A stretch of DNA of 64,000 nucleotides, taken from the NCBI GenBank assembly GCA_019636015.1, contig JAHBYJ010000002.1:1-64000 (forward strand). The letters are read 5' to 3'. Source of the DNA: Parvibaculaceae bacterium. GTDB taxonomy: Bacteria > Pseudomonadota > Alphaproteobacteria > Parvibaculales > Parvibaculaceae. Shown piece after piece: positions 2,548-5,567 of the stretch. The position numbers and the translations under genes were made by a program. Below the pieces are notes generated by a model, which did not search any database, was not told the DNA's origin, and saw nothing but the letters and a program-made list of their open reading frames with translations. Every line of letters starts with the position of its first letter. Within the stretch, counting starts at the first letter, position 1.

Positions 2548-3213
2548 TCAACGGGCGTTCAGGGGCTCGATGCAGGCCCGGTCGTCATGCCCGCCCTTCA
2601 CCTTGTTCACCCGGCTAGAGACCTCCTCGACCTTGATCCAGTCGGCCGGGCACGGCTTCAGGACCGCCTCGTCGGCCCGGCCGGCAAGCCAGCTCTCCAG
2701 GTCGTAGCGGCCGAGAATGACGGGCATCCGGTCATGGACTTCCGCCATCCGGCTATTGGCTTCGGTCGTGATGAGGGAGCAAGAGGTCACCTCCTCGCCC
2801 TCCGGTCCCGTCCAGCTGTCCCAAATCCCGGCAACGGCCATGGGCTCGCCTGACCCCATGGTGATGTAGAAGGTCCGCTTTGACCCCTTTTCCCCGCTCC
2901 ACTCATAGAAGCCAGACATGGGCAGGATCATCCGCTTCCGCTTGAAAAGCGGCCCCCACATCTTCGCCTGGGCGATGCCTTCGGCCCGCGCATTGATGGT
3001 GAAGGTGGGCGGCTTCTCCTGCTTCCACCATGAGGGGATGAGCCCCCACCGCATCCGGGAGGCATACCGGCCCTTCTCGTCGGCCCGGATCGCCCAGACG
3101 CGGTTTGTCGGGGCGACATTGAACCGCTCCTCGACATTCTGAGGGGAGCCGGTCAGCCCATAGAGCTCGACCAGCTCCGCCCAGGTGAAATATTGGGTGA
3201 AGCGCCCGCACAT
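2548..3213 (-). CDS. SRAP-domain protein (YedK/HMCES family), prophage-encoded
   Basis: 221 residues, full-length SRAP fold. After Met removal Cys2 (MCGRF) becomes the N-terminal nucleophile that forms a thiazolidine link to abasic sites in single-stranded DNA. The other conserved blocks are present: FNVAPT, RWGLIPSWW, INARAE, GFYEW and HDRMP. The family protects or processes abasic sites at stalled forks. It lies inside the prophage, only about 100 bases from its end, in the accessory block with the DNA methylases. A role in tolerating damaged or modified phage DNA is inferred, not shown. Confidence 0.9.
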   Translation of the reverse strand: MCGRFTQYFTWAELVELYGLTGSPQNVEERFNVAPTNRVWAIRADEKGRYASRMRWGLIPSWWKQEKPPTFTINARAEGIAQAKMWGPLFKRKRMILPMSGFYEWSGEKGSKRTFYITMGSGEPMAVAGIWDSWTGPEGEEVTSCSLITTEANSRMAEVHDRMPVILGRYDLESWLAGRADEAVLKPCPADWIKVEEVSSRVNKVKGGHDDRACIEPLNAR

Positions 3214-3701: not shown

Positions 3702-4502
3702 TCACCCTGCCGGCGTCACGATCAGCTCCCCGGCGGATACCGCCTTCTTGCCGCCGCCCACCATATAGGTCGTCTTCACCTTGTGGAGGCGGAAGGCGGA
3801 GAAGGTCTCCCGGATCGGCTTCACGTCGTTGATCGACATGATGAAGCGGCCCTTGAGGGCTGCCAGCCGCTCGGCGAGCTCGGCATAGTCGTCCCGGCTG
3901 AAGAGGTCCCGGCCATAGACGTGCTCGGTGCCGTAATAGGGCGGGTCCAGATAGAAGAGCGTTCCCGGCCCGTCATAAGTGTCGAGCAGCTCCCGCCAGT
4001 CCAGGCATTCGATAACGACGCGGGTGAGCCGCCCATGCACGTCCTCGATCATCGGCATGACCTTCGTCACGTCGAAGCGCGCCGCCGCCGTCCGCTGCGT
4101 CCCGAAAGAGCGTCCCTCGATCTTGCCGCCGAAGCCCGTGCGCTGGAGATAGATGAAGCGCGCTGCCCGTTCGAGGTCGGTCAGGGTCTTGGGATCGGTG
4201 GCGGCGAGGCGCTCGAATTCGGCTCTCGTCGTGAGCTGGTGACGGAGGAACTCCGCGAACGGGACATAGTGGCGCTGGACGATCCGAAAGAGATTGGCGA
4301 CTTCCCGGCTCGCGTCGTTGATGATCTCGGCCTTGGGTTGCAATCGCCTCCTGAAAAAGATGCCGCCCATGCCCACAAAGGCTTCCACGTAGCAATGGTG
4401 GGGCGTTGCCTCGATCATTGGAACGATCCTTCCGGCGAGGTTCCGCTTGCCACCCATATAGGCGGCGAGCGGCTTCACCGGCTCGATTTCAACGTGCTGC
4501 AT
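3702..4502 (-). CDS. DNA N6-adenine methyltransferase (D12 class, Dam-like)
   Basis: 266 residues. The SAM-binding motif FVGMGG (about 42-47) precedes the catalytic motif DPPY (about 186-189, in YLDPPYYGTEHVYG), the order of the alpha/D12 amino-MTase class. The opening KPLAAYMGGKRNLAGRIVPMI is the usual D12 N-terminus. The start ATG lies inside the end of the upstream overlapping frame, which suggests translational coupling. A phage orphan methylase, with no restriction partner visible, most likely protects phage DNA from host restriction. Target sequence unknown. Confidence 0.9.
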   Translation of the reverse strand: MQHVEIEPVKPLAAYMGGKRNLAGRIVPMIEATPHHCYVEAFVGMGGIFFRRRLQPKAEIINDASREVANLFRIVQRHYVPFAEFLRHQLTTRAEFERLAATDPKTLTDLERAARFIYLQRTGFGGKIEGRSFGTQRTAAARFDVTKVMPMIEDVHGRLTRVVIECLDWRELLDTYDGPGTLFYLDPPYYGTEHVYGRDLFSRDDYAELAERLAALKGRFIMSINDVKPIRETFSAFRLHKVKTTYMVGGGKKAVSAGELIVTPAG

Positions 4503-5436
4503 TTTCAGCCTCCGAAGTCAGCCTTGAGAGTTCGATACGCGAGCGCTGCAGCCAGGCTGCAAACCCCGTTACCGGCCGCGCGCAGCTCGTCCATCCGATC
4601 GGCCACCCCATCATCCACTCCGTGAAGCGCGGGTTGTAGTGAAGGGTCCCTGCGGAGGCATGTGTGCCAAGCTGCAAGCTCACCCGGAGCGGGGGCAAAG
4701 AGCGGAAGATCATCTCGTCTCTCGTCCCCGGCCGGAAGCCGGTCGATTGCAGCAGGAGCCAGAAGAGCGTCCACACTTTCGACGCCTCCTTCGGCCCCTT
4801 CTGCTGACCCTTCATGCCCTTCGGAATTTCGAACATGAGGCCGCCCGGCCCGATGCGCAGTTCGACGCGGTTCCCGTTGTTGCTCGCGGTCGGCGTGGGC
4901 CAATACGAATAGCCGCTGCCTCCAGTGAGAAGCGCCCGCTTCAGCCGCGCTGAACAGGCCCGCTTTAACTCGGAAACCCATCCTCTGTAGTTCGCGGCCG
5001 ACATCGAAAAATCCCAGATCGAGGTGGCCGAGCACATTTTCGAGGAAGACCCATTCGGGCTCGGTCTCGCCGATGATCCGCGCGATGTCCGGCCAGAGGT
5101 GCCGCGGGTCCGCCGCCCCGCGCCGCTTGCCCGACGAGGAGAAGGGTTGGCAGGGATAGCCGGCAGTGAGGATATGAATGCGGCCGCGCCACGGGCGGCC
5201 GTCGAAGGACTTAACGTCGCTCCAGACAGGCGCGCGATCCAGCGCCTCGTCTTCCATGCGGGAGACGAGAGTGGCCGCAGCATGGGCTTCCCGCTCGACG
5301 AAACAAACAGTGCGATATCCCGGCTCAGCGATATGGATGCCGAGCTCGAGGCCGCCATAGCCCGCGCAGAGCGCGAGCCCGTTGAGCGGGGCAGAAATTC
5401 GGGTGGAATGTAGAGCCACAATTTGAGCCTCATGTC
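4489..5436 (-). CDS. Second reading frame overlapping the cytosine methylase gene
   Basis: Open frame on the same strand as the methylase gene but in another phase, from MRLKLWLYIPPEF to a stop at 4489, about 315 residues. It covers the whole methylase gene apart from a few bases. Its second half does not look like random shadow sequence: YRGWVSELKRACSARLKRA, then GYSYWPTPTASNNGNR, and near the end NPRFTEWMMGWPIGWT followed by GFAAWLQRSR. From memory, such phrases recur in phage proteins encoded beside or within Dcm genes. A shorter start is MSAANYRGW at 5004. It shows no methylase motif. The stop overlaps the Dam start. Function unknown; a dual-coding artefact remains possible. Confidence 0.5.
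   Translation of the reverse strand, partial: DMRLKLWLYIPPEFLPRSTGSRSARAMAASSSASISLSRDIALFVSSSGKPMLRPLSSPAWKTRRWIARLSGATLSPSTAARGAAAFISSLPAIPANPSPRRASGAGRRTRGTSGRTSRGSSARPSPNGSSSKMCSATSIWDFSMSAANYRGWVSELKRACSARLKRALLTGGSGYSYWPTPTASNNGNRVELRIGPGGLMFEIPKGMKGQQKGPKEASKVWTLFWLLLQSTGFRPGTRDEMIFRSLPPLRVSLQLGTHASAGTLHYNPRFTEWMMGWPIGWTSCARPVTGFAAWLQRSRIELSRLTSEAENAAR
4505..5419 (-). CDS. DNA (cytosine-5-)-methyltransferase (Dcm family)
   Basis: 304 residues with the ordered C5-MTase motifs: motif I GLALCAGYGGLELG (about 14-27, SAM binding), motif IV GYPCQPFS (catalytic Cys90), motif VI FLENV (about 125-129), motif VIII QRLFVLA (about 168-174) and a C-terminal motif X-like RAAGNGV (about 280). The segment between VIII and X (about 178-270) is hydrophilic and poorly conserved, and it is exactly where the overlapping frame looks most protein-like. 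Orphan phage methylase, presumably anti-restriction. It runs directly into the second frame and the Dam gene. Confidence 0.9.
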   Translation of the reverse strand: MALHSTRISAPLNGLALCAGYGGLELGIHIAEPGYRTVCFVEREAHAAATLVSRMEDEALDRAPVWSDVKSFDGRPWRGRIHILTAGYPCQPFSSSGKRRGAADPRHLWPDIARIIGETEPEWVFLENVLGHLDLGFFDVGRELQRMGFRVKAGLFSAAEAGASHWRQRLFVLAHADREQQREPRRTAHRAGRPHVRNSEGHEGSAEGAEGGVESVDALLAPAAIDRLPAGDERRDDLPLFAPAPGELAAWHTCLRRDPSLQPALHGVDDGVADRMDELRAAGNGVCSLAAALAYRTLKADFGG

Positions 5437-5567
5437 GGGCGCTCCTGGCGCTCCGGTTGCGGGCTCGGTGATGGCCTCAGGGAATTTATCGTGCCGCAGC
5501 GGCGGCACTTGATCTCGATGAGGCCAGCTATAGCGTTGCCCCCCGCCTTCGCGGGGAATGTCTCCAT
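5430..5567 (-). CDS. Com-like zinc-binding protein (truncated first knuckle)
   Basis: 45 residues from METFPAKAGG, ending in IEIKCRRCGTINSLRP and a proline-rich tail. This ending is characteristic of the Com family; in Mu, Com is the zinc-binding translational activator of the mom modification gene. Only one CxxC pair is present. The N-terminal half, where Com normally has a second CxxC, carries none, so four-cysteine zinc binding is not possible in one chain. An in-frame ATG seven codons upstream (5588) is an alternative start. Position just upstream of the methylases matches the com-mom arrangement. Confidence 0.6.
   Translation of the reverse strand: METFPAKAGGNAIAGLIEIKCRRCGTINSLRPSPSPQPERQERPT

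Follow-up and report, generated by a model that had tools for sequence, protein, structure and literature searches.

Does the cytosine methylase gene (dcm) of a prophage encode a second protein in another frame of the same strand and, if it does, what would that protein do? The gene in question lies in the window analysed here, a stretch of 64,000 nucleotides that forms the first 64 kb of contig C2 in a genome assembly of 2.88 Mb. The prophage extends leftward into a tRNA-Thr gene (2326-2401), which stands at the prophage end and is the probable attachment site. A small gene on the minus strand near this end is listed between the SRAP gene and dam. Two further Dcm-family genes are present in the same genome (G000:C1:728511-729518 and G000:C1:1689196-1690188). 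The neighbouring genes and the parts of the methylase frame, termed A, are as follows.

2548-3213, minus strand: SRAP (abasic-site protein) gene, near the prophage end and close to the Dam and Dcm genes
3702..4502, minus strand: Dam, adenine methylase of the D12 class (PF02086, E 3e-27)
4505..5419, minus strand: frame A, C5-cytosine methyltransferase of 304 aa with a GTG start (PF00145, phrog_363)
5339-5380, minus strand: motif I of A
5138-5164, minus strand: motif IV (PCQ) of A
5033-5044, minus strand: motif VI (ENV) of A
4898-4936, minus strand: motif VIII of A
4562-4612, minus strand: motif X segment of A, DGVADRMDELRAAGNGV, overlapping motif IX of frame B (see below)

Frame A matched PF00145 with an E-value of 4e-29 over residues 15-181 and phrog_363 with an E-value of 9e-52. 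The original prediction had placed Dcm motifs I, IV, VI, VIII and X in one frame, and all five were located in A, including the SAM-binding motif I. As a PF00145 protein, A is complete in these motifs, but its chain contains neither a recognition domain nor motif IX, and its match is confined to profile positions 4-167 of the family. While motif IX is absent from frame A, a motif IX-like sequence sits in the second frame, B, where it overlaps motif X of A, the shared bases thus bearing two motifs. Frame B and its segments are listed below.

4489..5421, minus strand: frame B, +1 frame, 310 aa from TTG 5421, proposed target-recognition / motif IX subunit (from conservation, wB and PHROGs matches)
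4873..4911, minus strand: segment YSYWPTPTASNNG of B, where the constrained recognition region begins; in A, the stretch right after motif VIII
4588..4638, minus strand: motif IX-like segment YNPRFTEWMMGWPIGWT of B (conserved residues and profile match)
4519..4575, minus strand: C-terminal segment PVTGFAAWLQRSRIELSRL of B, kept in relatives

B overlaps the whole of A. As originally predicted, the +1 frame is open over the entire gene, from 4489 to beyond 5508; the four peptides that had been singled out in it are present, and the frame ends 14 nt into dam, which is located downstream of A and B. Homologous loci (308) were gathered from IMG/VR, species genomes and phage records, and 228 phage-type dcm genes were kept after duplicates and other Dcm families had been dropped. 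Expected stop numbers were derived from synonymous-codon shuffles of the same genes, preserving A and its codon use, and the first 30 and last 90 nt of each gene were left out of the counts. The 228 homologues contained 4 stops in the +1 frame, compared with ~682 expected, and the frame was fully open in 224 genes, compared with ~17 expected. No depletion was seen in frame +2 of the same genes (2540 stops versus ~2232 expected). Four Dcm genes of other families had 66 +1 stops (67 expected), and the Dcm-family gene at G000:C1:728511-729518, used as a control, likewise carried the expected number. For the window gene alone, 0 stops were found where 4.2 were expected, and about 1 shuffle in 300 was equally open. 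Homologues with a GC content of 45-50% were also open in +1. Openness by chance or codon bias is ruled out by the synonymous shuffles and by frame +2, and the view that the second frame is more than noise was borne out. Pairwise B-frame scores between the window gene and its homologues were not relied on: the median z was 3.8 for +1 and also 1.8 for +2, the latter being partly raised because related genes share codons.

For the analysis of selection, 89 disjoint pairs of relatives were formed, 54 of which, with at least 75% identity, were used for rates. Single substitutions were classed by their effect in each frame. These four-class rates replaced raw codon-position counts, which were dropped since their control was contaminated by spurious frames. 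The rates are simple pair counts rather than a full likelihood model, and the set of type II genes, to which the window gene belongs, comprised 10 pairs. Among substitutions that change A, the B-changing to B-silent ratio (NN/NS, here wB) was 0.17 (0.14-0.19), whereas the same count in flanking genes gave 1.08 (0.72-1.64). A-silent changes that create a stop in B were seen once, with ~74 expected; in the count by region, none was seen before motif VIII, with ~95 expected. The original prediction would have been refuted by unconstrained synonymous variation; instead, the A-synonymous sites proved to be strongly constrained by B.

The two frames are not constrained in the same places. In the catalytic part, selection was strong on A (wA 0.06-0.13) and weak on B (wB 0.4-0.8). 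Between motifs VIII and X, A was near neutral (wA 0.6-1.2) and B constrained (wB 0.09-0.22), with a wB of 0.09 and a wA of 0.61 in type I genes and of 0.22 and 1.17, respectively, in type II genes. Here, too, the prediction held, which had described the Dcm part between VIII and X as weakly conserved exactly where the other frame looks best. In the motif X region, both frames were constrained (wA 0.15-0.25, wB 0.19-0.47). The region-wise pattern was found in each of the two gene types, I and II, when they were analysed separately. Both frames are thus selected, and in the recognition region the constraint moves from A to B. Two long members of the family, L031 and L033, contain VADADG-like repeats in A that are mirrored by WPTPTA blocks in B; it is B that seems to drive the repetition. 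Purifying selection and stop exclusion in both frames are what is demanded of a same-strand overlapping gene pair, and both were found. B is a conserved coding gene along the full length of A. That it is a selected protein-coding gene we regard as practically certain, its translation being inferred.

How both frames might be initiated is suggested by two elements at the upstream end of the gene.

5417..5421, minus strand: dual start TTGTG, in which the TTG of B (5421-5419) overlaps the GTG of A (5419-5417), assigned from the arrangement in homologues
5428..5447, minus strand: Shine-Dalgarno-like AGGAG and GAGG, read from the sequence and an inference

The start of B in the window is ambiguous between TTG 5421 (TTGTGG) and the in-frame ATG 5433, which would give 314 aa. 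GAGG lies 6 nt upstream of TTG 5421 and 8 nt upstream of the GTG of A, and AGGAG lies 8 nt upstream of ATG 5433; judged by position, the Shine-Dalgarno-like element could serve both frames. In the homologues, two starts 2 or 4 nt apart were found in 199 of 228 genes and follow two patterns, ATGAATGAG and TTGTGG being examples. The first, NTG-N-ATG (variants ATGAATG, GTGAATG and ATGCATG), occurs in 161 genes, with A starting at NTG and B at ATG 4 nt on. The second, NTGTGG (variants TTGTG, GTGTG and ATGTG), occurs in 38 genes including that of the window, with B starting at NTG and A at GTG 2 nt on. By this comparison, TTG 5421 fits the dual-start rule of the homologues and ATG 5433 remains the alternative. 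The reading of B originally proposed was retained, while its start, placed at 5436 or upstream, was refined accordingly.

Codon choice in A reflects the start of B. Where codon 2 of A provides the ATG of B and encodes Asn, it is AAT in 112 of 112 cases, compared with 39% of the Asn codons elsewhere in the same genes; where it encodes His, it is CAT in 19 of 19 cases, compared with 50%. The locus meets the description of an ambiguous start, namely close start codons in two frames that are kept by selection; use of both by ribosomes is inferred. In E. coli, initiation of two frames has been shown at AUGUG and GUGUG (PMC9841429). The Thermus rnpA-rpmH start (AUGGAUG), the sole described bacterial case known to that review, and the E. 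coli sites resemble the arrangement described here in having starts 4 or 2 nt apart in two frames and probably a single Shine-Dalgarno sequence (PMC9841429). They differ in that the second frame of dcm is conserved in many phages as a partner gene of full length.

We next consider the nature of the B protein. Its C-terminal part matched phrog_1008 ('DNA methyltransferase') with an E-value of 6e-17 and phrog_27243 (unknown function) with an E-value of 2e-10. No significant match or family was found in Pfam, no model in NCBIfam, and a tblastn search of phages with the C-terminal half of the window B returned nothing; gamma-type B as the query retrieved 341 phage records. The best-conserved segment of B, LNP.F.EWLMGWP.GWT, agrees in form and position with motif IX of C5 methyltransferases. 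It occupies the same place as L.PR.....MG.P (motif IX) of canonical Dcms, and its N, P, M, G, W, P and W are kept in at least 90% of the alignment rows. AlphaFold models of B without a partner, built from alignments that left out rows from annotated phage records, were weak. The mean pLDDT was 62.9 for the window B, with mostly <50 for the N-terminal 130 residues and mostly higher confidence for residues ~140-220, and 55.7 for gamma B. Fold searches with these models gave no PDB or viral match. A TRD-like fold of B is not shown, and the weak predicted model neither supports nor refutes a recognition domain.

Homologues of B outside Dcm-overlapping positions, whose absence would also have spoken against the original prediction, were found both as C-terminal halves of longer chains and as separate genes. 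Gp70 of mycobacteriophage ShiLan is a single chain of 390 aa in which the catalytic half, of A type, is followed by LLPTP repeats, LAPAFSEWMMGWPAGWV and motif X in that order; it matched phrog_363 (A family) over residues 1-385 and phrog_1008 (B family) over residues 196-388 (E 2e-61). Aggie gp53 shows the same kind of fusion. In Ovechkin, a relative of Aggie, the halves are separate genes, gp69 and gp70, and in Juno112 (gp41/gp42) they are partly overlapping genes. Downstream or partly overlapping B homologues are represented by Ovechkin gp70, Eagle gp77, Juno112 gp42 and EdgarPoe gp80. The actinophage proteins (Eagle gp78/gp77, Ovechkin gp69/gp70, Juno112 gp41/gp42, ShiLan gp70 and Aggie gp53) share with the window gene an A-like part with motifs I-VIII and, with frame B, a B-like LLPTP...FSEWMMGWPAGW part. 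They differ in that the two parts form one chain or lie in genes that adjoin or partly overlap, and in that the C-terminal half also bears motif X, which here is in A. In hhalign comparisons with the actinophage C-terminal parts, the gamma-type B profile scored an E-value of 6e-15 and window-type B 5e-11, the window-type match being limited to the motif IX segment. Thus, B-like and A-like parts make one chain in actinophages.

Several records illustrate the variety of these arrangements. Aggie (L309 1038-2690) and Ovechkin (L312 447-1157 and 1240-2061) have a near-identical Dcm N-terminal half. In Eagle (L062 1221-2316), gp78 is the A half with motifs I-VIII and gp77 the B half plus motif X, both named DNA methylase, and the same pair is present in many related records. 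The Paenibacillus phages Diva (gp50) and Redbud (gp51) carry an annotated 'internal gene', which lies in the B frame of dcm and shares WPTP repeats and LNPDWVECLMGFPIGWTD with B but starts within dcm, stops well before the end of A and has been given no function. A alone is annotated in most records, e.g., in E. coli prophages. In Pseudomonas phage phPA-G (L064 1501-2229), B is annotated as 'hypothetical protein' and the dcm frame A is unannotated. One E. coli prophage copy (L314 1201-1978) is interrupted in A and in B alike, by stops that lie within a few bases of each other. A metagenomic contig (L027 2638-4164) resembles an A-B fusion, but the N-terminus of A is joined to B by a one-base shift after PCQ, which may be a sequencing error or a real fusion; the contig was excluded. 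Dual coding has been kept in hundreds of phages, with hosts from many phyla.

By analogy, the distribution of motifs I-VIII and X on one polypeptide and of motif IX on another is of a kind already known from M.EcoHK31I, whose small subunit we take to be encoded in another frame within the large one. In this YGGCCR enzyme, the larger polypeptide contains motifs I-VIII and X and the smaller one motif IX (Lee, Kam, Shaw 1995, cited in PMC3404938). A corresponds to the larger polypeptide; the presence of motif IX in B rests on pattern and profile only, without a Pfam-level match. The likeness fails for the predicted recognition domain, which the literature places in the larger subunit of M.EcoHK31I, whereas here the region between VIII and X is constrained in B. 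Also unlike M.EcoHK31I, the two frames here share a dual start and B extends over all of A. M.AquI (CYCGRG), with alpha and beta subunits, is naturally split between motifs VIII and IX (PMC3404938); its small subunit contains both IX and X, a division not matched here, where X is in A. Fragment complementation has been amply documented for C5 methyltransferases that were divided between VIII and the TRD (PMC3404938, PMC5944983). Judged by these analogies, A and B most likely work like M.EcoHK31I as a kind of enzyme, membership in that type being untested. The differences are the recognition region selected in B, the dual start with full span, and the spread over phages of many host phyla. In the open-licence literature, the only kind searched, we found no description of this phage family as two-frame methylases.

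We propose that one phage cytosine-5 methyltransferase is made as two polypeptides from two overlapping frames. Ribosomes would load at a single initiation region and begin at one of two start codons, that of B or that of A, which lie 2 nt apart here and 4 nt apart in most relatives. A would provide SAM binding and catalysis through motifs I-VIII and X, and its stretch between VIII and X would be a loose linker, read from the codons of B. B, whose N-terminal half is under weak constraint and whose C-terminal part, with the WPTPTAS region and motif IX, would serve in recognition, would pair with A, complete the enzyme and pick the DNA target. With this enzyme and the adjacent Dam, the prophage would probably mark its own DNA against host restriction. 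We consider it probable that A and B constitute a two-polypeptide cytosine methyltransferase with B as the recognition partner of A; translation of B, pairing, specificity and the protective role are inferred. B is read as the recognition partner because motif IX is present in B and absent from A, and because of the fused actinophage chains.

Three other explanations were weighed against this proposal. If B were merely a shadow of A, conserved A residues and GC-rich codon use would hold the +1 frame open and similar. The genomes are indeed mostly GC-rich, and motif X of A, DG.A.RVDRL, gives MGWP.GWT in +1, meaning that part of the B similarity follows from A. Yet shuffles that preserve A and its codon use still predict the ~682 stops, the homologues of 45-50% GC are open as well, wB is low, and B is conserved where A is not; we regard this explanation as refuted. 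Ribosomal frameshifting from A into B could instead yield a second methylase, a single chain to which A contributes motifs I-VIII and B the recognition part. Fused chains of such a kind are known in actinophages, and the N-terminal half of B is weakly constrained and predicted to be disordered. A shift after motif VIII, however, would need neither the exclusion of stops from the start of B onward nor the ATG of B that is kept through codon choice, and its product would lack motif X, which A alone bears. Since stops are excluded from the first B codons on, separate initiation fits better than a mid-gene frameshift, which we consider quite improbable.

It also remains conceivable, if unlikely, that B is a genuine overlapping gene for an independent accessory protein outside the methyltransferase, e.g., an anti-restriction protein or a regulator. 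Such genes often adjoin methylases in phage genomes, and B alone has no annotated function, with phrog_27243, phrog_26627 and phrog_35493 all being of unknown function. This is difficult to reconcile with the B-type sequence found in-frame between motifs VIII and X of ShiLan gp70 and Aggie gp53, with the resemblance of the best-conserved B segment to the motif IX missing from A, and with the lack of constrained sequence in A at the expected place of the recognition domain. Of the original suggestion that an overlapping gene might be tied to methylation or anti-restriction, the existence of the gene is supported and the tie to methylation is favoured, given the resemblance of B to a target-recognition/motif IX part; an independent anti-restriction role is without support, although not excluded.

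Long same-strand overlaps have rarely been proven in prokaryotes and phages, and here the comparative evidence spans hundreds of genes. For the dcm overlap, the proposed start mechanism is explicit and the function open to testing, and the family is a rich natural source of dual-start sites (NTGNATG and NTGTGG). We lean, with some reserve, towards the broader view that a large family of phage methyltransferases has its catalytic and recognition halves written in the same nucleotides, in two frames from one ambiguous start, that the annotated Dcm frame is only a linker in the recognition region, and that many annotations have taken recognition domains from the wrong frame. If the two-polypeptide reading is true, many annotated phage Dcms would be half an enzyme, A expressed alone would fail or lose specificity, and predictions of specificity from A between motifs VIII and X would rest on near-neutral sequence.
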